From: Streptomyces sp. NBC_01268
GTDB lineage: Bacteria; Actinomycetota; Actinomycetes; Streptomycetales; Streptomycetaceae
Direction of reading: 5' to 3'
Assembly (NCBI RefSeq): GCF_036240795.1
Contig: NZ_CP108454.1
Coordinates: 4,216,001-4,280,000, forward strand
DNA length: 64,000 nucleotides
Position numbers and translations under genes: made by a program. Below, in pieces: positions 1,827 through 54,408 of this stretch (position 1 is its first letter; every line of letters begins with the position of its first letter). A model generated the notes under the pieces. The model was not told the DNA's origin. It did no database searches and was given only the letters and a program-made list of their open reading frames with translations.

Positions 1827-2332
1827 CGGGTGCCGCCCAAGGGAACCGGCCGGATGCTCCACGGGATCTCGGCGGCGGCCGCCGGGGTCGCGCAGCACGC
1901 GGTCGAGGTGGTCCAGCCGTCCCGGGCGGCGCCCTCGGCCTCGGCCGCGATCTGCGCCGCGTCCAGGGAGGCGTGCACGCTGTGCAGCTCCCCGGAGCGG
2001 AACAGGACGTAGACGAACTCGGCCCGCGCGTTCTGCTTCCGGGTGACCCGCAGCAGGGTCCGCAGCGCCTGCCGGTCCTCGGTGTCGAGCAGCGATTCGG
2101 CGCGCAGGGTCTCCAGCTCACCCTCCAGCCGGGCCGCGTCGGCGATCGCCTGGACGAGCCGCGCGCGCTGCGTCTCCAGGGCGTTCTCCGCCCGGATCGC
2201 GAAGTCGGCGGACAGCTCGCTGCTCTGCTGGTGGTGTGCGGCCTCGGCGCGGGCGACGGTGGTGGCCGCCTCGGCGTCGGTGACATCGTCGCGCAGGGCG
2301 CGCAGGGTGCGGGTACGGACGATCGCGATCAC
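1823..2332 (-). CDS. Coiled-coil element protein, function unknown
   Basis: A 169-residue protein with a GTG start (2332-2330) overlapping the DUF2637 stop as GTGA. Residues about 10-95 are a long, charged, Ala/Glu/Arg/Leu-rich helix that should form a coiled coil. Residues 100-140 (FVYVLFRSGELHSVHASLD) look like a small alpha/beta domain, and the tail is Pro/Ala-rich with two adjacent cysteines. No known domain is recognised. Its fixed position between DUF2637 and the zinc-ribbon gene suggests a shared structural or maintenance role. Confidence 0.7.
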   Translation of the reverse strand: MIAIVRTRTLRALRDDVTDAEAATTVARAEAAHHQQSSELSADFAIRAENALETQRARLVQAIADAARLEGELETLRAESLLDTEDRQALRTLLRVTRKQNARAEFVYVLFRSGELHSVHASLDAAQIAAEAEGAARDGWTTSTACCATPAAAAEIPWSIRPVPLGGTR

Positions 2333-3354
2333 GCGGTGGCTCCCTCAAGGACGGTGGTGGACTGGGCGTCGCGGAGTTCCTGGTAGCGGGTGGAGACCCA
2401 GCCGACGGACCAGCCGCACAGCTCTGCGGCCTGCCGCACCGACACCCCCGCACCGAACGCGGCGGTCACGGTCTGGCGGGCCCGCTCCTCCGACTGCTTC
2501 TCGTTCGCGGGGCCGGCGGCGAGGAGGGCGGCGCGTTCACGCTCGGCGCGCTCGGCCTGCTCACGCTGTTCACGCCGCGTCGCTTCCTCGCGCTCCCGGC
2601 GCTCCTTGTCGCGCTGCTGCGCGGCCTGCCGTTCACGCTCCCGCTGCTGGCGTACACGCTCGCGCTCGGCCTGTTCACGCTGTTCACGCTCGCGCTCGGA
2701 GCGTTCACGCTCGGCCCGCTGCTCGCGCTCTGCAGCTGCCCGCTGCTCGCGCTCTTCACGGGCCCGGCGCTCTTCTCGTTCAGCCTGTTCACGGGCCAAC
2801 GCGGCTTCGTGCTCGCGCTGTTCACGGGCGAGAGCCGCCTGATGCTCGCGCTCCTCGCGGGCCCGGCGCTCCGCCCGTTCCTCGCGCTCCTCGGCCTCCC
2901 GCCGCGCCTCGGCCTGCTCGGCCCGTTTACGGGCGTTCAGGCCGTCCAGGGCGGCGGTGATAGCCCGGCGGTAGGCGAGGCTGGTCTCCGCTGTGACGAT
3001 GAGCAGCAGCGGGGCGACCGAGTGCACGGCGACGCCGACCAGGTCCTTGTTCAGCGCGGAGTCCGCGACGTTCAGGGCCAGGGTCATGGTGCCGGTCATC
3101 CACCGCAGCACCACCGACCACCGACCGCCGTGGTGACCGAGACGGGCCAGGACCGAGTCCAGCCGGACCACGATCACGACCGCCGCGTCCACCACGATCG
3201 GCAGGATCGGCGCCGTCCACTTCCACTCGTCGAGCGTGTGCGCCCGCATCAGCGGCGTCACCGTCAGGACCGAGTAGAGCATCGCCCCGCACACGATCAA
3301 CCACGTGCCGAACGACAGGGCCCGCTCCGCTGAACGGATCTGAACATCGTTCAC
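2329..3354 (-). CDS. DUF2637 membrane protein with long Arg/Glu coiled coil and C-terminal HTH
   Basis: A 341-residue protein from a GTG (3354-3352) overlapping the previous stop. About residues 10-110 hold four hydrophobic segments (DUF2637). Residues about 125-285 are a near-uninterrupted series of short Arg/Glu/Gln/Ala repeats (EREQREQ-like), a very long single helix or coiled coil. Residues about 290-335 read as a helix-turn-helix (VSVRQAAELCGWSVGWVSTR). A membrane anchor joined to a DNA-binding end is typical of this family in actinobacterial integrative elements. A role in positioning element DNA at the membrane is inference. Confidence 0.8.
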   Translation of the reverse strand: MNDVQIRSAERALSFGTWLIVCGAMLYSVLTVTPLMRAHTLDEWKWTAPILPIVVDAAVVIVVRLDSVLARLGHHGGRWSVVLRWMTGTMTLALNVADSALNKDLVGVAVHSVAPLLLIVTAETSLAYRRAITAALDGLNARKRAEQAEARREAEEREERAERRAREEREHQAALAREQREHEAALAREQAEREERRAREEREQRAAAEREQRAERERSEREREQREQAERERVRQQRERERQAAQQRDKERREREEATRREQREQAERAERERAALLAAGPANEKQSEERARQTVTAAFGAGVSVRQAAELCGWSVGWVSTRYQELRDAQSTTVLEGATA

Positions 3355-3692
3355 GACCCGACCCCCGCACCCGTCAGGACCGCCTCGGCGGCCGGGACCG
3401 GCGAGTAGCCGACCAGCTCCACCGTGGCTCCGGCGAACCTGCCGTGAACGGTCAGGACCCCCGTGCGCCCCCCGGACTGAACGTGGTGAGCAACGTCCTC
3501 CGAGGCCAGGTTCAGCGCCTGCCGCCACGCCTCGAACGCGCCGAAGCCGCCTTCGTGGAACGCCAGCTCCAGCCGGTCCGGGACGACCGTCGACACGTGC
3601 ACGGACGGCGCCGGCAGGTCCGCGAACTCCGCCGCAACAGTCCGCAGCGCCAGCAGCGGGGTGCTCAGCCCCGCCAGGGTCAGCCCGCTCAC
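3351..3692 (-). CDS. Small element protein, function unknown
   Basis: This 113-residue protein uses a GTG start (3692-3690) overlapping the DUF6284 stop as GTGA, and its own stop overlaps the DUF2637 start. It seems to be one compact alpha/beta domain, with a Trp/Gly-containing stretch (FHEGGFGAFEAWRQAL) and a beta-rich C-terminal half. No catalytic residues stand out. Proteins of this size between DUF6284 and DUF2637 are usual in AICE-like elements, but I know of no assigned function. Confidence 0.7.
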   Translation of the reverse strand: MSGLTLAGLSTPLLALRTVAAEFADLPAPSVHVSTVVPDRLELAFHEGGFGAFEAWRQALNLASEDVAHHVQSGGRTGVLTVHGRFAGATVELVGYSPVPAAEAVLTGAGVGS

Positions 3693-3952
3693 GCGGCACC
3701 GCCCAGCACCGTGGCGACGCGGTTGGTCAGGTTCCGACGCTCGGCCAGGCCCCGGTTACGGGCCCGGCGCACCCGCCGGCCGTCCAGGTCGTTGACCGGA
3801 CGGTCCAGGGTCTTGATGTACAGGTCGAGCCCCGCCAGGTCCGCCAGAATCTCCGGCATCTCCAGCTCGATCGCGTCCAGCTCAGCGTCCGACGGCTCAA
3901 GATCGTGCGGCAGCCTCGTAACGAGGCCCTGAAGTGCAGCGATGGACTTCAT
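3689..3952 (-). CDS. DUF6284-family protein, first gene of the element operon
   Basis: This 87-residue protein starts with MKSIAALQGLVTRLPHDLEP at ATG 3952-3950, behind a GAGAGGA site. It is acidic then basic: a SDAELDAIELEMPEI helix followed by an Arg-rich helix (RRVRRARNRGLAERR), the pattern of DUF6284 proteins found at the head of such operons. The ATG is preferred over longer in-frame openings because of the ribosome site and family start. The leader contains two hairpins, one covering the ribosome site, so expression may be controlled at translation. Confidence 0.8.
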   Translation of the reverse strand: MKSIAALQGLVTRLPHDLEPSDAELDAIELEMPEILADLAGLDLYIKTLDRPVNDLDGRRVRRARNRGLAERRNLTNRVATVLGGAA

Positions 3953-3959
3953 TGGGTGT

Positions 3960-4017
3960 GTTCCTCTCACACAGGAACGGCCCGAACGAACCCCCGGAGT
4001 AGCCGCTCCGGGGGTTC
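3960..4017 (-). promoter_or_regulatory. Structured leader of the element operon
   Basis: Two inverted repeats lie just upstream of the DUF6284 start. The nearer one (3960-3965 with 3973-3978, arms GTTCCT/AGGAAC) pairs the GAGAGGA ribosome site with upstream leader. The farther one (3988-3999 with 4006-4017, 12 perfect bp, 6-base loop) is strong enough to act as a terminator or attenuator. On the plus strand the same hairpin could stop transcripts entering the operon. Function is inferred from position. Confidence 0.5.
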
Positions 4018-4388
4018 TCGCCGTTGGAACCATCCGGCTCCCCTCAACCCCGCCCGTACGGCACCCCGCGTGGGGCCCGGACGGGCGGAGGAGGCAACCG
4101 GCCGCAGCCGAGAAGGCTGCGAAGTCGGGTAAGTACATGGGTCGCGATCTTTGCCCCTGTGTCACCGCACGTGACGGGTCCTCGGCCAGCCCGAAGGGTG
4201 ACCTAGATCAAGGTGCGTGCTGCTCTCGTGCGGCAGGGCCTACGGCTTGTCGCAGGTGCCTGGACGTACTGACGACCGCTCTTCCCTAGCGAAGGCTGCG
4301 GTGCGTCCCCTGTTTAGTTCTCAAGCCAGCAGTCGCTTCCATCGAGCCGATCCGCCTAGTGCGGAGCCCTCCGGGCGCATACGGATGG

Positions 4389-4492
4389 CAAGGGGGGGTT
4401 AGCACCCAAGCCGTCCGGCAACCTCTCCTGTTAAGGGGGGGTTGCCATGTAGCTTGCTGGAGACTGGCGACCTGTGTCAACCCCCCCTTAAC
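4389..4492. promoter_or_regulatory. G7 inverted-repeat operator region
   Basis: A perfect 15-bp inverted repeat (4430-4444, GTTAAGGGGGGGTTG, with 4478-4492) is separated by 33 bases, and a third related half-site, AAGGGGGGGTTAG, lies at about 4390-4402. The block sits in the roughly 590-base gap between the leftward operon and the rightward HTH gene, 48 bases before its start. Repeated half-sites of this length are what a dimeric regulator controlling both directions would need. The cognate regulator is unknown. The rest of 4018-4388 shows no convincing gene. Confidence 0.6.
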
Positions 4493-4539
4493 ATGAGTCG
4501 AGGGAACATCCACTCTGAGCTGATTCGCGAGGCGAGACA

Positions 4540-5376
4540 TTGATCGAGGAAGTACGGCGGGTCTCGGCGATGCAGGATCACTCCCTGCGCGTCAAAGCCG
4601 CTGTTGACCTGATGACAGAGCTGCAAGCCGCAGTCGTCGAGACATCACGGATGCGGAAAGAGAGCATCGCGTGGCTTCGCAAGAACGGGCACTCGATGGC
4701 CGACGTGGCGAAGTTGATGGGGGTGAGTCGTGCGCGTGTCGCTCAGCTTCGTGATGCTGGGCCGCCCGCGGAGAGGGGGTTCCTTGGTTCACAGCTAGTA
4801 CAGGTCGTTGTGCCTCTCCGGCCCGGTGAGCGGGAGTACGTGGCTGTGGAAGACAGCTCGACCGGGCAGAAGCTGTTGACGCTGGCACAGAGCCTTCAGC
4901 TCGATGGAGACCTCGGGTACATCCCGGTGACGGGAGAGCTCGACCTCAACCGTGACGACCTGCTGGTGGTGTGCGGGCCGAAGACGTCTCCAGAGGCTGC
5001 GGCGGCACTCGCTCAAGACCCCCGACTCCTGTTCGAGACGCTGCCTGACGGGCGATGGGCTCTCACGGAGAGGGAAAGCGGCAAGGTCTACACATCGCCG
5101 AGTGACGATCCGCAGGAGCCGAGGCCGGCAGATGTGGCGTACCTCGGGAGGCTTCCTCGCCCGGATGGGCAGGGAACGTTCATCTTGATCGCCGGGGTCC
5201 ATGCGGTCGGGTCGCTGGGCGTGGCCCAGTTCCTCACCGAGAACCTTGCGTCCCTTTACGGGGAGGTGGGCATCGAACCGTTCTCGATGGTCGTGGCCTG
5301 CGACTACAACCCCAGTGACAAGTCGGTGACGGCGACTCGATCGATGAGCGGTGTGCTGCGTCACGAGGCCGCTTGA
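4540..5376 (+). CDS. HTH protein with unrecognised C-terminal sensor-like domain
   Basis: A protein of up to 278 residues, from TTG 4540 (GAGGCGAG just upstream) or ATG 4570. Residues about 20-75 contain a helix-turn-helix of the sigma-4/Xre kind (SMADVAKLMGVSRARVAQL). The remaining 200 residues form a mixed alpha/beta domain with DLLVVCGPKTSPEAAAAL and FILIAGVHAVGSLGVAQFL, which look like Rossmann-type strands with glycine turns, perhaps a ligand pocket. It is followed after one base by the PP2C gene, so the two are co-translated. A regulator whose output depends on the phosphatase is one reading. The domain is not identified. Confidence 0.75.
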   Translation: MIEEVRRVSAMQDHSLRVKAAVDLMTELQAAVVETSRMRKESIAWLRKNGHSMADVAKLMGVSRARVAQLRDAGPPAERGFLGSQLVQVVVPLRPGEREYVAVEDSSTGQKLLTLAQSLQLDGDLGYIPVTGELDLNRDDLLVVCGPKTSPEAAAALAQDPRLLFETLPDGRWALTERESGKVYTSPSDDPQEPRPADVAYLGRLPRPDGQGTFILIAGVHAVGSLGVAQFLTENLASLYGEVGIEPFSMVVACDYNPSDKSVTATRSMSGVLRHEAA

Positions 5377-35562: not shown

Positions 35563-37080
35563 ATGACGGCGCCGAACGGGACCGGGGGCGGCCACCCACA
35601 GCGTTGGCTGATCCTCGGCGTCATCTGTCTCGCCCAGCTCACCGTGCTGCTCGACAACACCGTGCTCAGCGTCGCCATCCCTTCGCTGACCTCCGAGCTG
35701 CACGCCACCACCAGCGACATCCAGTGGATGATCAACGCCTATTCGCTGGTCCAGTCCGGCCTCCTGCTCACCGCGGGCAACGCCGCCGACCGCTACGGCC
35801 GCAAGAAGCTCCTCGCCGCCGGCCTCGCTCTCTTCGGCCTCGGCTCGCTCGCGGCGGGCCTCGCCGACTCCACCGCGCAGTTGATCGCCGCCCGCGCGGG
35901 CATGGGCGTCGGCGGCGCGCTCCTGATGACCACGACCCTCGCCGTCGTCATGCAGATCTTCGACGACTCGGAGCGGGTCAAGGCCATCGCGCTCTGGTCC
36001 ACCGTCGCCTCGCTCGGCTTCGCCGGCGGGCCGCTGATCGGCGGCGTGATCCTGAACCACTTCTGGTGGGGAATGATCTTCCTGATCAACATCCCGGTGG
36101 CCGTCGTCGCCCTGGTCGCCGTCGTCAAGCTGGTCCCCGAGTCCAAGAACCCCCAGGGCGAGCGCCCCGACCTGCTCGGCGCACTGCTCTCCACCATCGG
36201 CATGACCGCGGTCGTGTACGCCATCATCAGCGGCCCCGAGCACGGCTGGATCTCCGGCGAGGTGCTGGTCCCGGCAGCGATCGGCCTGCTCGGCCTGGGC
36301 GCCTTCGCGCTGTGGGAGCTGCACACCCCGTACCCGATGCTCGACATGCACTTCTTCCGCAACCAGAAGTTCGTCGGCGCCGTCGGCGGCTCGATCCTGG
36401 TCGTCTTCGGCATGGGCGGCTCGCTCTTCCTGCTCACCCAGCACCTGCAGTTCGTCCTCGGTTACGAACCCCTCGAGGCGGGCCTGCGGATGGCGCCGCT
36501 CGCCCTGACGATCGTCGGACTCAACCTGACCGGCATCGGCCCGAAGGTCGTCATGAAGCTGGGCACCCCGCCCACCGTCGCCCTCGGCATGACCCTGGTC
36601 GCCGCCGGTCTCACCTCGATCTCGCTGCTCGGCGGCGGCACGGACGGCAGCTACTGGGGCATGCTGCTCGGCCTGGTCCTGATGGGCGCCGGCATCGCCG
36701 TCTCCTCCCCGGCGATGGCCAACGCGCTCATGAGCGCCATCCCGCCGGAGAAGGCGGGCGTGGGCGCCGGGATCAACGGCACGCTCGCCGAGTTCGGCAA
36801 CGGCCTCGGCGTCGCCGTCCTCGGTGCCGTCCTCAACGCCCGCTTCGCCGCCCTCGTCGCCGTCACCGCCACCTCCCTCCCGGCCGCCCTGGCCGCGGCG
36901 GGCAGCGACGCCCAGCGACAGCAGATCTCCGACGCCTTCGCCTCCGGCCTGCAGACCAGCCAGCTGGTCGGCGCGGTCGCCGTCTTCGCCGGCGGACTGC
37001 TCGCCGCGGCCCTGCTCCAGCGGGCCGAACGGGCGGAGCGGCGCGAGCAGGGCGCGGAGAACCTCGAAGTGGCTGCATAG
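35563..37080 (+). CDS. DHA2-family (EmrB/QacA-like) drug:H+ antiporter
   Basis: A 505-residue protein with 14 membrane segments. Motif A is NAADRYGRKKLLAAG, helix 1 has TVLLDNTVLSVAIPSL, and motif C-like GFAGGPLIGGVI is present. It exports hydrophobic drugs or secondary metabolites by proton antiport. An exact inverted repeat overlaps its promoter and its repressor gene follows 36 bases downstream, so it is almost surely induced by a substrate of the TetR protein. Confidence 0.9.
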   Translation: MTAPNGTGGGHPQRWLILGVICLAQLTVLLDNTVLSVAIPSLTSELHATTSDIQWMINAYSLVQSGLLLTAGNAADRYGRKKLLAAGLALFGLGSLAAGLADSTAQLIAARAGMGVGGALLMTTTLAVVMQIFDDSERVKAIALWSTVASLGFAGGPLIGGVILNHFWWGMIFLINIPVAVVALVAVVKLVPESKNPQGERPDLLGALLSTIGMTAVVYAIISGPEHGWISGEVLVPAAIGLLGLGAFALWELHTPYPMLDMHFFRNQKFVGAVGGSILVVFGMGGSLFLLTQHLQFVLGYEPLEAGLRMAPLALTIVGLNLTGIGPKVVMKLGTPPTVALGMTLVAAGLTSISLLGGGTDGSYWGMLLGLVLMGAGIAVSSPAMANALMSAIPPEKAGVGAGINGTLAEFGNGLGVAVLGAVLNARFAALVAVTATSLPAALAAAGSDAQRQQISDAFASGLQTSQLVGAVAVFAGGLLAAALLQRAERAERREQGAENLEVAA

Positions 37081-38079: not shown

Positions 38080-39675
38080 CTACTGGGCGTCCGCCGTGGC
38101 GTCCTCCGCCTTGACGGTGTTGCTCTTCAGCGCGACCTCCTTGATGAACAGGGTCACGATGAAGGCCAGCAGCGCGAAGGGCGCCGAGTAGAGGAAGACG
38201 TCGCCGACGCCGTGGCCGTACGCGCTCTCCATGACCGTACGGATCGGGGCGGGCAGCTTGTCCATGTCGGGGATGCCGCCACCGCCGCCCTGGCCCATGG
38301 CCGCCGCGGCCTTCGGGCCGAGCTCGGCCAGACCGTCCTTGACGTAGTCGGTGACCCGGTGGGCCATGACCGCGCCGAGCGCCGAGACACCGATCGCACC
38401 GCCCAGGGAGCGGAAGAAGGTGACGACGGAGGAGGCGGCGCCGAGGTCGGAGGGGGCGACCTGGTTCTGCGTGCAGAGGACCAGGTTCTGCATCATCATG
38501 CCGAGGCCGAGGCCGAGGACCGCCATGAAGAGGGCGATGTGCCAGTACTCCGTGTCGTAGCGGATCGTGCCGAGCAGACCGAGTCCGCCCGCGGCGAGGG
38601 CGCCGCCGGCGACCAGCCAGGCCTTCCAGCGGCCGGTCTTGGTGATGATCATGCCGGAGACCGTCGACGAGACGAACAGACCGCTGATCATCGGGATGGT
38701 GAGGACGCCGGACATCGTCGGCGACTCGTTGCGGGCCAGCTGGAAGTACTGGCTGAAGAAGACCGTGCCGGCGAACATCGCGACACCCACGAAGAGCGAG
38801 GCCAGCGAGGCCAGCGTGATCGTGCGGTTGCGGAAGAGGCGCAGCGGGATGATCGGCTCGGAGGCCTTGGACTCCACGAGGAGGAACACCGCGCCGAGGA
38901 GGACCGAACCGCCGACCATGGCGGCCGTCTGCCAGGACATCCAGTCGTACTTGTCGCCCGCGAAGGTGACCCAGACCAGGAGCAGGGAGACGGCGGCGCT
39001 GATGAAGAAGGCACCCGCCCAGTCGACCTTGACCTGACGCTTCACGACGGGCAGCTTCAGGGTCTTCTGCAGCACGAACAGCGCGATCAGCGCGAAGGGC
39101 ACGCCGACGTAGAAGCACCAGCGCCAGCCGAGCCAGTCCGTGTCGGTGATGACGCCGCCGAGCAGCGGGCCGCCGACGGTGGCGACGGCGAAGGTCGCGC
39201 CGAGGTAGCCGCTGTACCGGCCGCGCTCACGCGGGGCGATCATGGCGGCCAGGATGATCTGGGAGAGGGCGGTCAGACCGCCGACGCCGATGCCCTGGAC
39301 CACGCGGCAGGCGATCAGCATGCCGGTGTTCTGCGAGAGGCCGGCGACGATCGAGCCCGTGACGTAGATGACCAGGGCTATCTGGACGAGCAGCTTCTTG
39401 GAGAAGAGGTCCGCCAGCTTGCCCCAGAGCGGGGTGGTCGCCGTCATCGACAGGAGCGCGGCGGTGACCACCCAGGTGTAGGCGGACTGGCCGCCGCCGA
39501 GGTCGGTGATGATCTGGGGGAGGGCGTTCGAGACGATCGTCGAGGACAGGATGGCGACGAACATGCCGAGCAGCAGCCCGGAGAGCGCCTCCATGATCTG
39601 CCGGTGCGTCATCGGGGCACCGGAGTTGTCGGTCCGGCCTTCCCGTACACCCGTGGCAGGTGCGGTGGTAGCCAT
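38080..39675 (-). CDS. DHA2-family MDR exporter
   Basis: A 531-residue, 14-helix major facilitator with LSSTIVSNALPQIITDLGGG in helix 1, motif A GKLADLFSKKLL, and AVATVGGPLLGGVITD as motif C. It belongs to a different DHA2 branch from the exporter at 35563. It follows the MarR gene by 85 bases on the same strand, which suggests MarR-controlled co-expression. The C-terminal cytosolic tail is short and charged. Confidence 0.9.
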   Translation of the reverse strand: MATTAPATGVREGRTDNSGAPMTHRQIMEALSGLLLGMFVAILSSTIVSNALPQIITDLGGGQSAYTWVVTAALLSMTATTPLWGKLADLFSKKLLVQIALVIYVTGSIVAGLSQNTGMLIACRVVQGIGVGGLTALSQIILAAMIAPRERGRYSGYLGATFAVATVGGPLLGGVITDTDWLGWRWCFYVGVPFALIALFVLQKTLKLPVVKRQVKVDWAGAFFISAAVSLLLVWVTFAGDKYDWMSWQTAAMVGGSVLLGAVFLLVESKASEPIIPLRLFRNRTITLASLASLFVGVAMFAGTVFFSQYFQLARNESPTMSGVLTIPMISGLFVSSTVSGMIITKTGRWKAWLVAGGALAAGGLGLLGTIRYDTEYWHIALFMAVLGLGLGMMMQNLVLCTQNQVAPSDLGAASSVVTFFRSLGGAIGVSALGAVMAHRVTDYVKDGLAELGPKAAAAMGQGGGGGIPDMDKLPAPIRTVMESAYGHGVGDVFLYSAPFALLAFIVTLFIKEVALKSNTVKAEDATADAQ

Positions 39676-40402: not shown

Positions 40403-40657
40403 ATGGCACACAACCCCCAAGCACCGTACGGCCAGGGCGGCCAGGGCCCCGAGGGCTCCTACGACCCCGCCGGCAGCACCCAGATGTTCCGCGCCTTCGT
40501 CGACGAGGGCACCCCCCAGCAGCAGAACCAGCCGGGGCAGCGGCAGCAGCAGTACCAGACCACGACCCACTCCTCCGGCCCGCGCGTCGGCCTGATCGTC
40601 GGCGTCATCGTGGCGATCGCCGTCCTGGCGGGCGTCGCCTGGCTGGCGCTGGGCTGA
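40403..40657 (+). CDS. Small single-pass membrane protein
   Basis: An 84-residue protein from ATG 40403. Residues 1-58 are hydrophilic and Gln/Pro/Gly-rich (FRAFVDEGTPQQQNQ), residues about 62-82 are one membrane helix (GLIVGVIVAIAVLAGVAWLA), and there is almost nothing after it. Similar short tail-anchored proteins are common in Streptomyces. The function is unknown. Confidence 0.7.
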   Translation: MAHNPQAPYGQGGQGPEGSYDPAGSTQMFRAFVDEGTPQQQNQPGQRQQQYQTTTHSSGPRVGLIVGVIVAIAVLAGVAWLALG

Positions 40658-40671
40658 CGCGGTCGGATTCG

Positions 40672-40795
40672 GGGCCGGGGCCGGGGCCGGGGCCGGGGCC
40701 GGTCGGGTCCGGTTCGGGTCCGGTTCGGTTCGAGTTCGGTTCGGGTCCGGCTTCCGGTTCGGTTTCCGGTTCGGTTTCGGTTCGGGCTCGGGGAG
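40672..40795. repeat. GGCCGG / GGTTCGGTTCC microsatellite
   Basis: Five GGGGCC units are followed by many copies of TTCGGTTC/GGTTCC-like hexamer and dodecamer units. It is non-coding and directly outside the long inverted repeat. Confidence 0.6.
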
Positions 40796-40821
40796 AGGGC
40801 GGTCGTGGTGGGAGTCCTGGT

Positions 40822-42078
40822 GGGCTTCTGGCGCGGCCGCCCTCTTTCCGAGTGTGGCCCCCGGGACCGGGCCGTCAAGGGCGCTCCCTGCGGTCGCGTC
40901 GCTTCGCGATTCCGCTGCGCTCCACCCTTGACGGCCCGGCCCCGGGGGCCCTTTCACACTCGGAGGGCGGCCGGGGGCGGGGCCACGCGGGGGACGGGGA
41001 GTGGTGCTGGTGGGTGCGCGGCCGCCGGGCCGGTGGGTGGGGAGGCCGGGTATCGGCGGGCCTCGTTCCCTGTCCGTCGGCCGGGTGGGTGGGGGGCTCG
41101 GTTCGTGGCCGGGGCCGGTGGGGGCGACTCCCTTGGTTCGGGGTGCGCGGCAGTGGAATGGGGCGGCTGGGCTTGGCTCAGCGGCGGACGGTCGGCGGAT
41201 GGCGGGTCTTCAGGCCCCGCTGGTCATCGCCGGTGGGTTGATCGCCGGGGAGAACCGGCGGCCGAGAGCGTCGAGAGTCTTGAGACTGCCGGGAGTGTCG
41301 AGAGCTCCGGGTTCCCAGCCGAGTAACGCCGCTCACTTCGTGCCCGAGATGGCCGGTCGGCACCTCCCTCGTCACACGAGTCGCAGACCGTCCCATCGCG
41401 GGCCGGAGTTGCACGTTTTGCATGGACGGGGCGGCCAGGACACGGAGATACGTCGGCCCGCTGAGCGTCGGGAGGGCCGTCCGGCACCTCTCCCGTCACA
41501 CCAGCCACCTCCCGTCCCACCGAGGAGGGGAGAAGGGACTGCGCGGGGCGAGCGGGGTGGACTGCCATGCAAAGTCTCCACACCATGCACGGAGGGGACC
41601 GGCCACCACCTCTCCCGTCACACGAGTCCTCGCCTGCCCCATCCCGGCCGGGGATCGCAGACTTTGCATCCCAGAGTGACCAGCCGGGCCTGAAGCCCAC
41701 CCATCGCGAGCCGGCGTCCGCTGAGCCAAGCCCAGCCGCCCCATTCCACTGCCGCGCACCCAGAAGCGACGGATGTCCGCCCACCGGCCCCGGCCACGAA
41801 CCCAGCCCCCACCCACCCGGCCGACGGACAGGGAACGAGGCCCGCCGATACCCGGCCTCCCCACCCACCGGCCGACGGCCGCGCACCCACAGGCACCACT
41901 CCCCCGTCCCTCCGCGTGGCCCCGCCCCCGGCCGCCCTCCGAGAGGTTTTTCGCACCTTCCAGCGCCGGGTCAAGGGTGGCCGTAGGTCATCGCGCAGCG
42001 ACGCGACCGTAGGGAGCGCCCTTGACGCGGTGGTGGAAGGTGCGACTCTCGGAAAGAGGGCGGCCGCACCAGAAGCCC
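40822..42078. repeat. 1.26-kb long inverted repeat
   Basis: The left arm, 40822-41226, is the near-exact inverse of the right arm, 41678-42078 (shared landmarks: GGGCTTCTGG at the outer ends, GTGCGCGGCAGTGGAATGGG and GGCCGGGTATCGGCGGGCC inside). The arms are about 400 bases and flank a 451-base centre. Each arm starts with a smaller hairpin with an arm of the TCAAGGGCGCTCCCT type. No open frame in the block behaves like a gene. It could be a MITE-like element or an inverted duplication; see findings. Confidence 0.75.
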
Positions 42079-42132
42079 GCCCGCGCCCCCACCCCGACGA
42101 ACCCAGAGACCAGCGCGCCCAGGAGGACACCG

Positions 42133-42828
42133 ATGCCCGAGACGTCCGTACCCGACGCATCCGATGCGCCCGACGTTTCCCACGTCCTGGCCGAGCTGGC
42201 CGCGCTGGAGGACCCGAAGGCGCGTGCCGTGAACGAGCGGCACGGTGACGATCACGGTGTGAACCTCGGCAAGCTGCGTGCGCTCGCCAAGCGGCTCAAG
42301 ACGCAGCAGGAGCTCGCGCGCGGGCTCTGGGCCACGGACGACACGGCCGCGATGCTCCTCGCGCTCCTGATCTGCCGCCCCAAGGCGTTCGAGCGGGACG
42401 AGCTGGACGCGATGCTGCGGCGGGCCCGCGCGCCCAAGGTCCACGACTGGCTCGTCAACTACGTCGTCAAGAAGAGTCCGTACGCCGAGGAGCTCCGCGT
42501 GGCCTGGTCCGCCGACCCGGACCCCGTCGTCGCCAGCGCCGGCTGGGCTCTCACCACCGAGCGCGTCGCCAAGAAGCCTGACGGCCTCGACCTCCCCGCT
42601 CTCCTCGACGTCATCGAGGCGGACATGAAGGACGCCCCTGACCGCCTTCAGTGGGCCATGAACCACTGCCTCGCCCAGATCGGGATCGAACACCCCGAGT
42701 ACCGCGTCCGCGCGATCGGCATCGGCGAGCGCCTCGAAGTCCTGAAGGACTACCCGACCTCCCCGGGCTGCACGTCCCCCTTCGCCCCCGTCTGGATCGC
42801 CGAGATGGTCCGCCGCCAGACGGCGTGA
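42133..42828 (+). CDS. AlkD-like DNA alkylation repair protein
   Basis: A 231-residue protein with AGGAGGA five bases before ATG 42133. It is built from HEAT-like helical repeats with RAVNERHGDDHGVNLGKLRA, ICRPKAFERDELDAM and AWSADPDPVVASAGWALTTE, matching the COG4912 DNA_alkylation family. AlkD enzymes remove bulky cationic alkylpurines by trapping DNA on a helical solenoid. The exact catalytic Trp/Asp set cannot be confirmed here, so it may be one of the non-enzymatic relatives. Confidence 0.75.
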   Translation: MPETSVPDASDAPDVSHVLAELAALEDPKARAVNERHGDDHGVNLGKLRALAKRLKTQQELARGLWATDDTAAMLLALLICRPKAFERDELDAMLRRARAPKVHDWLVNYVVKKSPYAEELRVAWSADPDPVVASAGWALTTERVAKKPDGLDLPALLDVIEADMKDAPDRLQWAMNHCLAQIGIEHPEYRVRAIGIGERLEVLKDYPTSPGCTSPFAPVWIAEMVRRQTA

Positions 42829-42926: not shown

Positions 42927-43979
42927 ATGACCAGCCGTCCGCCGCTGATCCACCGGCATTGGCCCGCCCTCGCCGACGCCCTCCCGTACCTGCCGCTCGG
43001 CACCGGCCCCACCCCCGTCCGCCCGCTCACCCGCCTCGGCCCGCGCACGCCGGTCTGGGTGAAGGACGAGAGCGGGTACGGCGACGGCGGCTGGGGCGGC
43101 AACAAGGTCCGCAAGCTGGAGTGGCTCCTCCCGGACGCCCGCCGCCGGGGCGCCCGGACCCTCCTCAGCGTCGGCGGCCTCGGCACGAACTGGGGCCTCG
43201 CGGCCGCGCTCTACGCCCGCGAACAGGGCCTCGACGTCGCCCTCGCGCTGATCGACCACCCGGTCGACGACCACGTCCGGGCCCAGCTCGCCCGGCTGCG
43301 GGCCTCCGGCGCCACGCTGCACTTCCCGCACACCAAGGCCCGGCTCGTCCTCTCGCTGCCCTGGCTGCTCGCCCGTCACACCCGCGGCCTCCGCCTCCCG
43401 TACGTCCTGCCGGCGGGCGGGTCCTCGGCGCTCGGGACGCTCGGGTACGTCGAGTGCGCGCTGGAGCTGGCCGAGCAGGTGGCGGAAGGGCTGCTGCCGG
43501 AGCCCGCCTGGATCGTGACGCCGGTCGGCTCCGGTGGTACCGCCGCAGGGCTGGCCCTCGGACTACGGCTGGCCGGGCTGCGCACCCGGGTGCTGGCGGT
43601 CGTCGTGAACGACACGCTGCGCCTGGACGGCGGCCGGCTCGCGGCACTGGCGGGGAAGGCGGAGCGGCTGCTGCGGGCACGGGGCGCCGACGTGCCGGCC
43701 GTACGGCTCGGTGCCGAGGACATCGTCACGGAGCGCGGGTGGCTCGGCCCGGGGTACGCGCACTCGACCGAGCCGGGCGCGCGGGCACTGCGATGGGCGG
43801 CCGCGGAGGCGGATCTGGAACTGGAGCCCGTCTACACGGCGAAGGCAATGGCGGCCCTGTTGCCTCCGGAGACGGAGGGGCGCTTCGACGACGGCGGTCC
43901 GGTGGTCTTCCTGAACACGTTCGGGCCCAGGCCGGACGGGGCCCGGGGCAGGGGCGAGGATCGGGGCTCCTCGGAATGA
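42927..43979 (+). CDS. PLP-dependent ACC deaminase/D-cysteine desulfhydrase-family protein
   Basis: A 350-residue fold-type II PLP enzyme. GGNKVRKLEW holds the Schiff-base lysine (K60), SVGGLGTNWGLAAALYA is the phosphate/substrate loop, and TPVGSGGTAAGLALG binds PLP phosphate. The family deaminates ACC or beta-eliminates D-cysteine; the exact substrate cannot be told. ATG 42927 is preferred over earlier openings. It stands alone. Confidence 0.85.
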   Translation: MTSRPPLIHRHWPALADALPYLPLGTGPTPVRPLTRLGPRTPVWVKDESGYGDGGWGGNKVRKLEWLLPDARRRGARTLLSVGGLGTNWGLAAALYAREQGLDVALALIDHPVDDHVRAQLARLRASGATLHFPHTKARLVLSLPWLLARHTRGLRLPYVLPAGGSSALGTLGYVECALELAEQVAEGLLPEPAWIVTPVGSGGTAAGLALGLRLAGLRTRVLAVVVNDTLRLDGGRLAALAGKAERLLRARGADVPAVRLGAEDIVTERGWLGPGYAHSTEPGARALRWAAAEADLELEPVYTAKAMAALLPPETEGRFDDGGPVVFLNTFGPRPDGARGRGEDRGSSE

Positions 43980-54225: not shown

Positions 54226-54408
54226 TCCGTCTGCTGGCCCGTCTGCTGGTACGTCGACTGGTCCGTCGACTGGTCCGTCGTCCGGTTCGCCCGTGGGCAG
54301 TTCGCCTGCTGACCGTCCGTCCGTAGAGCCGGTTCGTCCGTAGAGCCGGTTCGTCCGCGGACCGGTCGGTCCGCGGACCGACCGGTCCGCGGACGGGTGC
54401 CCGGGTGT
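54226..54408. repeat. Tandem and palindromic GTCCGCGGACCGG spacer
   Basis: Between the convergent upp and LytR_C genes are repeats of TGGTCCGTCGAC and CGTAGAGCCGGTT (two copies each), then nested palindromes around GTCCGCGGAC (about 54353-54395). It would form stable hairpins and serve as a two-way terminator. Confidence 0.6.

Follow-up and report, generated by a model that had tools for sequence, protein, structure and literature searches.

A long inverted repeat with its core at positions 40822 to 42078 of the window (the whole stretch of 64,000 nucleotides of Streptomyces DNA that was analyzed) raises the question of what kind of element it is and what keeps its two halves self-complementary. 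A preliminary description, made from the letters of the sequence, had considered a MITE-like element or fold-back remnant, a structured RNA locus, a recent origin, and an artifact of assembly.

Structure of the inverted repeat and its neighborhood

Comparison of the window with itself confirmed the inverted repeat and placed its core within a somewhat longer full repeat (Table 1). The best inverted-repeat score of the element was 708 bits, compared to at most 61 bits in 60 dinucleotide shuffles, and its folding energy was -1032 kcal/mol, compared to -683 ± 11 kcal/mol in shuffles (z = -31). Among the inverted matches listed within 6 kb in the window, the next one joins two paralogous coding sequences and scored 101 bits. 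Arms of about 400 bases with few changes had been reported. The length held (about 425 bases), but "few changes" proved generous, as the left and right arms aligned at 84% (431 bits) and contained near-perfect stretches of 68 nt (100%) and 35 nt (97%). The hairpin described within each arm was recovered, as was the center of 451 bases, to within one base, and this center was additionally found to hold three direct repeats that had gone unmentioned. A perfect 44-base palindrome elsewhere in the window (54352 to 54395) is unrelated to the element.

No frame had looked like a gene in the preliminary description. A crude gene finder based on codon position called no gene wholly inside the element, where the longest open frames reach up to 230 amino acids, and no frame in the center had good codon statistics, but two called frames enter the ends (40459 to 40878 on the minus strand, and 42022 to 42828, an extended frame of the downstream gene). 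A search of Rfam at E ≤ 1 gave the element three microRNA matches, all far below the gathering score, which we took to be due to chance, and it was not assigned to any known Rfam RNA family. No sigma-70-type promoter was matched in the element, and a terminator search of the locus gave one weak match, outside the element. Together with the scarcity of G-U intermediates described below, these results lend no positive support to a structured RNA locus.

Table 1. Features of the inverted repeat and flanking genes in the window
Feature	Position	Strand	Details
Upstream flanking gene (UPG), small membrane protein	40403..40657	+	No Pfam match above cut-off
CTCGGGGAGAGGGCGGTCG	40787..40805	+	Direct repeat, 84%, of the B end at 42048-42066
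Whole inverted repeat	40802..42098	.	Self-alignment: 73.7% over 1346 aligned columns, 730 bits
A-end hairpin	40833..40976	+	CCGAGTGTGGC ... CCTTTCACACTCGG; TCAAGGG/CCCTTGA closes the stem; nhmmer E 1e-29
Left conserved arm (ARM)	41082..41239	+	nhmmer E 1e-30
Center	41240..41671 (41227-41676, 450 nt, by self-comparison)	.	Without a plausible gene in the window copy
Three direct repeats of ~123 nt in the center	41346-41423, 41470-41547, 41592-41669		
Right conserved arm (ARM, inverted)	41672..41819	-	nhmmer E 1e-30
B-end hairpin	41925..42069	-	CCGAGAGTCGC ... AAAAACCTCTCGG; nhmmer E 8e-38
Downstream flanking gene, DNA alkylation repair (AlkD-like)	42133..42828	+	PF08713, E 2.6e-22
Next gene, PLP-dependent enzyme	42930..43979	+	PF00291, E 1.6e-33

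The gene for the PLP-dependent enzyme is called ACCD here. Low-complexity GGGGCC and GGTTCGG runs (40660 to 40790) lie directly upstream of the element and are missing from G334, the nearest relative found. Two exporter-like genes, which we take to be of the MFS type, lie in opposite orientation (35563 to 37080, plus strand; 38080 to 39675, minus strand), and parts of them match each other as an inverted repeat at 59% across 823 columns.

The gene order in G334 is the same as in the window, and the full repeat is absent there 3′ of the upstream gene. A terminator-like hairpin stands alone at that place; its right half resembles the A end, and its left half resembles, by eye, CTCGGGGAGAGGGCGGTCG, which in the window might base-pair with the A end of the element. 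G334 does have a related element, 70 to 73% identical, at a distance of three genes from the position that corresponds to the one in the window. In two other genomes, an element lies either directly 3′ of the upstream gene, with a GNAT gene in its center (G409), or one called gene away from it (G407). The best 80 named matches at the window locus were nearly all from Streptomyces, and in the surroundings of the best 80 named matches of the upstream gene, taken to at most 8 kb per side, there were no arms and one hairpin, about 3 kb away. Either two elements once lay beside this gene pair and one was lost in each species, or the element has moved.

A dispersed family in a minority of Streptomyces genomes

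The inverted repeat in the window is one copy of a dispersed palindromic intergenic family that is present in a minority of Streptomyces genomes. The same genome holds a second, partly decayed copy, and a whole-element search gave some match in 21 of 61 genomes, its own included. A search of Streptomyces genomes with one arm, put forward in the preliminary description, gave matches at E ≤ 0.001 in 86 of 392 genomes, many of them short and weak, and since two candidates per genome were scored, the copy counts are lower bounds. With profiles of the hairpins and arms, all four modules were found in order at 52 of 78 scanned loci, from 18 Streptomyces genomes; the 78 loci were fetched because they matched, so this fraction is not a frequency, and the hairpin match was shortened in 4 of the 52 complete elements. 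These elements span 653 to 2,443 bp and consist of an outer hairpin (about 145 nt), an arm of about 160 nt, a variable center, the inverted arm, and a second outer hairpin.

A signature of the A end, with up to one mismatch allowed, was found in 18 of the 392 genomes, and its reversed control was found in none. Sites were tallied, so that an element with A hairpins at both ends counts twice; on this tally, 17 of the 18 carriers had 1 to 9 sites and G006 had 23, the next highest count among the 392 genomes being 9. Six G006 copies align together at 66 to 83% over their longest stretches. The signature misses diverged ends, since the profiles recover complete elements in G100, G249, and G262, where the pattern has no match. 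In an order-wide sample it was present in 6 of 197 genomes and in none of the 16 from outside the genus Streptomyces. Among the open-licence PMC papers listed, nothing was recognized as this palindromic family. Two loci carry related structures. A 1.8-kb palindrome with several internal repeats (L052 in G012, 3454 to 5250) has the hairpin core alone in common with the family and perhaps belongs to a related but distinct one. At L333 (G065, 2164 to 3476), the start of a gene is present twice next to what is left of an element, and two called frames have the same first 45 residues.

This distribution refutes both the recent origin and the assembly artifact that had been raised, as complete relatives exist in 18 genomes and six of them occupy orthologous positions in two species. 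An artifact or a single recent inverted duplication would fit the lack of the full repeat at the exact place in the closest relative, but the complete elements elsewhere, the second, partial copy in the same genome, and the 16% divergence of the arms leave that explanation a vanishingly small chance.

Polarity of the hairpins and paired changes in their stems

Two kinds of outer hairpin, A and B, can be distinguished, and they give polarity to 35 of the 52 complete elements. Twelve of the others have A/A ends, five were unclassified, and none has B/B ends. In inverted alignment, the outer ends and the A and B hairpins form terminal inverted repeats. A dispersed noncoding family with terminal hairpins is in the direction of the MITE-like or fold-back remnant first suggested for the locus.

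Hairpins chosen by hand from the loci (29 A, of which 28 were distinct, and 26 B, of which 23 were distinct) were aligned, and standard pairs occupied 96.7% (A) and 97.2% (B) of the pair cells. When the partners were slid by 1 to 3 columns, pairing fell to 36 to 53%. Changes in the stems were two-sided in 106 cells (60 in A and 46 in B) and one-sided in 10 (5 in each), and 42 (A) and 24 (B) cells were unpaired. Four of five covariation measures beat nearly all shuffles, and the count of further pair types was not exceptional, being reached by 47 (A) and 422 (B) of 500 shuffles; the stem structure was derived from the same hairpin sequences that were used in this test. Few of the stem changes in the two kinds of hairpin had G-U intermediates. 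This scarcity would fit change at the level of DNA, through block replacement or template switching, better than a selected RNA, and the high G+C content also lowers the number of G-U steps expected.

The paired stem changes, as well as the TTTTC directly after most A-end stems, are also consistent with a transcription boundary, at which the end hairpins would stop RNA polymerase in both directions, the double-stranded transcript would be cut, and the neighboring genes would be insulated. Transcription insulation has been proposed for REP/BIME clusters. The orientation of neighboring genes agrees with this explanation: of 60 copies, 40 were usable in a hand recount, in that the calls of the crude gene finder did not overlap the element (17 overlapping and 3 uncalled copies were left out), and 2 of these 40 lie between divergent genes, compared to 19 between tandem and 19 between convergent genes. 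The unfiltered counts for all 60 copies were 28 tandem, 20 convergent, 9 divergent, and 3 uncalled. Nevertheless, 374 of the 392 genomes lack the signature, the sole terminator match is weak and lies outside the element, a hairpin would suffice without 1 kb of arms, and G-U intermediates are fewer than would be expected of a selected RNA, an expectation that the high G+C content again lowers. We consider a transcription boundary to be improbable.

Conserved places and homogenized copies

G186 and G294 have six element places in common, and the polarity agrees at each of them (seven G294 elements were fetched, six of which are at these places). The flanks are 82 to 95% identical where they align, which is on both sides at four places and on one side at two. 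Whole-element identity within a genome was 0.899 for G186 (10 pairs) and 0.913 for G294 (15 pairs), whereas between the two genomes it was 0.795 for orthologous elements (4 pairs) and 0.793 for nonorthologous elements (26 pairs); these values omit L270 and L144, which have no arm matches. L270 and L326 have a 193-column stretch in common that is 90.2% identical. At the level of sequence comparison, these results demonstrate concerted evolution of the G186 and G294 elements. The homogenization could alternatively have come from repeated insertion at the same sites.

The arms of 45 elements were then compared across genomes, keeping elements with exactly one arm match per side, which drops G006, and assigning loci by eye from common neighboring genes. 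Identity was 0.850 for arms from one genome (n = 58), 0.734 for arms of different genomes at a shared locus (n = 37), and 0.711 where neither genome nor locus was shared (n = 895). Relative to the background for the same pair of genomes, orthologous arms showed a mean difference of 0.000, with 15 of 34 differences positive. Same-side arms within seven genomes were 0.77 to 0.93 alike. The fit between left and right arms was also higher within a genome (0.780) than between genomes (0.735), a difference reached in none of 5,000 permutations that ignored phylogeny, and the excess was positive in 8 of 11 genomes and absent in 3; this test omits eight genomes with A/A or unclear ends. Within a genome, the two arms of one element fitted each other as well as the arms of different elements did (0.781 versus 0.779), so we rejected tuning of the pairing copy by copy. 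Because the excess is genome-wide and not element by element, the unit that is made alike seems, from these comparisons, to be the genome's set of copies. Homogenization was strongest in G186 and G294, the two genomes compared in full.

Evidence bearing on mobility

The strongest rival to recombination between resident copies is transposition of a conventional MITE or fold-back element in trans, with a transposase recognizing the A and B ends and hitting preferred targets repeatedly. The polar terminal hairpins, the outer terminal repeat, and the related element three genes from the window's place in G334 suit such movement, as does G006 above all, with its 23 A-end sites and six copies that align over much of their length. 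On the other hand, all six compared places and polarities are common to G186 and G294, and Pfam searches found a transposase domain in none of 30 proteins within or beside elements (batches of 10, 7, 8, and 5). Target-site duplications, which the locus had been expected to be checked for, were sought by eye at the KIN locus and at the junctions of 12 G186 and G294 elements, and none was clear. No parent insertion sequence with the same ends was recognized among the copies read, which included 13 G006 elements fetched of its 23 A-end sites, and viral contigs gave no exact matches of two signatures. We consider transposition in trans to be unlikely, though the likeliest of the alternatives, and G006 is a promising genome for finding a mobilizing enzyme. 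A 526-amino-acid frame in a G006 element (L323) was rejected as a transposase, being a DUF3089 protein with no NCBIfam match.

Plasmid searches with two elements matched the hairpin core alone (about 50 to 100 nt), in six records each, and the records opened (L100 to L103, from Curtobacterium, Kocuria, and two Streptomyces) had ordinary annotated genes around it. The core was also present, among the matches listed, on plasmids of Nocardia, Gulosibacter, and a Mycobacterium, and one plasmid with the core is 1,579 bp long. A racemase search provided no usable empty site.

Genes between the arms

In the 57 elements that were measured, the shortest center has 89 nt and the longest 2,122 nt, and 21 centers are under 160 nt. 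Alignment of 16 short centers showed an apex sequence conserved in most, with L266 and L140 diverging. A plausible gene lies between the arms in 13 elements (L335 and L323 included), while most copies, that of the window among them, have none. Seven of the 13 gave Pfam matches, namely, ankyrin, GNAT (twice), Glyoxalase_6 with SUKH-1, LysR, mycothiol transferase, and DUF3089; the genes of the other six had no Pfam match, and several had weak codon statistics. When 13 frames from G006 centers were tested, the DUF3089 frame was the single match. An Imm53 protein is encoded inside L338, which is missing one arm match.

Contents differ between genomes at particular loci. At the KIN locus, G342 and G186 have a short center, a lipoprotein-like gene occupies that of G004, and in G315 and G248 the element is absent and other genes are called at this place. 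At the oxidase locus, where the flanking gene was matched by eye, L045, L148, and L326 are short, L141 and L335 are loaded, and L270, L336, and L337 are each missing at least one module. The differing contents at the oxidase locus, together with an apex that is intact by eye beside the cargo in L042, L142, and L273, would be expected of a gene-capture platform, in which the apex serves as a receptor for single genes that are exchanged at fixed sites with no known integrase. However, a common junction motif was not established, most copies are empty, and nearly half of the 13 cargo genes are without a domain match. The sites themselves may be permissive, since genes occur at the KIN locus without an element and copies at the oxidase locus miss modules. 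Moreover, 4 of the 13 loaded elements (L042, L273, L277, and L278) are without a hairpin or arm match and may be decaying, so that what looks like capture in them may be insertion into a decaying element. We find such a platform very doubtful as an explanation of the family.

Discussion

The explanation that we consider the most plausible, and hold tentatively, is that of a fold-back-like element, non-autonomous and with polar hairpins at its ends, whose copies now stay alike chiefly through recombination with one another and whose center accepts genes. It would have begun as a mobile element of the fold-back type, and new copies would now be rare. The palindrome would extrude, or form hairpins at replication forks, and would be broken near its center; SbcD, which belongs to the nuclease that would be expected to open long hairpins, is present in the genome. 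Repair of the broken palindrome from another copy would make the copies of a genome alike and leave their places unchanged, copying from arm to arm by template switching would keep the self-complementarity, and repair that joined stray DNA instead would leave a gene beside the apex, between the arms. Such a history of break, conversion, and capture, reconstructed from sequences, would explain the stable places, the likeness within genomes, the self-complementarity, and the occasional genes in the centers.

Several known systems resemble the family in part. Mobile insertion cassettes (MICs) have inverted-repeat ends around passenger genes and no transposase, as do the loaded copies. MICs have their ends in common with a known insertion sequence, whereas the ends of this family are tied to none and most of its copies are without a plausible gene. 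REP/BIME clusters are likewise palindromes mostly beside the 3′ ends of genes and similar to one another within a genome. REPs measure 20 to 40 bp and usually exceed 100 copies, however, while the family's elements are 0.65 to 2.4 kb long and most carriers have few A-end sites; with hairpins of about 145 nt in elements of 653 to 2,443 bp and 1 to 23 A-end sites per carrier, it was not placed among the REP/BIME clusters. Like bacterial MITEs and fold-back elements (PMC10969869), the family is short, noncoding, dispersed, and intergenic with inverted-repeat ends, but it has long arms, nested hairpins, polarity, and common places with concerted evolution. The words "Streptomyces" and "actinobacter" are absent from the main text of that review of bacterial MITEs (PMC10969869). 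The family also differs from MITEs in that no parent transposase or target duplication was seen where inspected. Template switching homogenizes the arms of inverted repeats or creates and maintains hairpins, comparable to the arm homogenization and paired hairpin changes of the family (PMC8604942, PMC8794818). It is a mutational process and not an element, and it explains the likeness of arms but not that of distant copies.

A further possibility joins recombination with capture: a chromosomal gene-capture system without an integrase, made of fixed palindromic stations that would be kept alike by break-induced conversion and whose apex would time and again accept and swap single genes. The outcome would be comparable to that of integron cassettes, but the family has no known integrase. 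We judge this quite improbable; if true, the structure of DNA, and not a dedicated enzyme, would make the cassette site. Bacterial chromosomes are not expected to keep long palindromes stable, but the places of this family are constant across species, and within each genome its copies have become alike. The family may thus offer a natural system in which to ask whether gene conversion is driven by breaks that palindromes induce, how DNA stays self-complementary, and whether genes collect at such sites.
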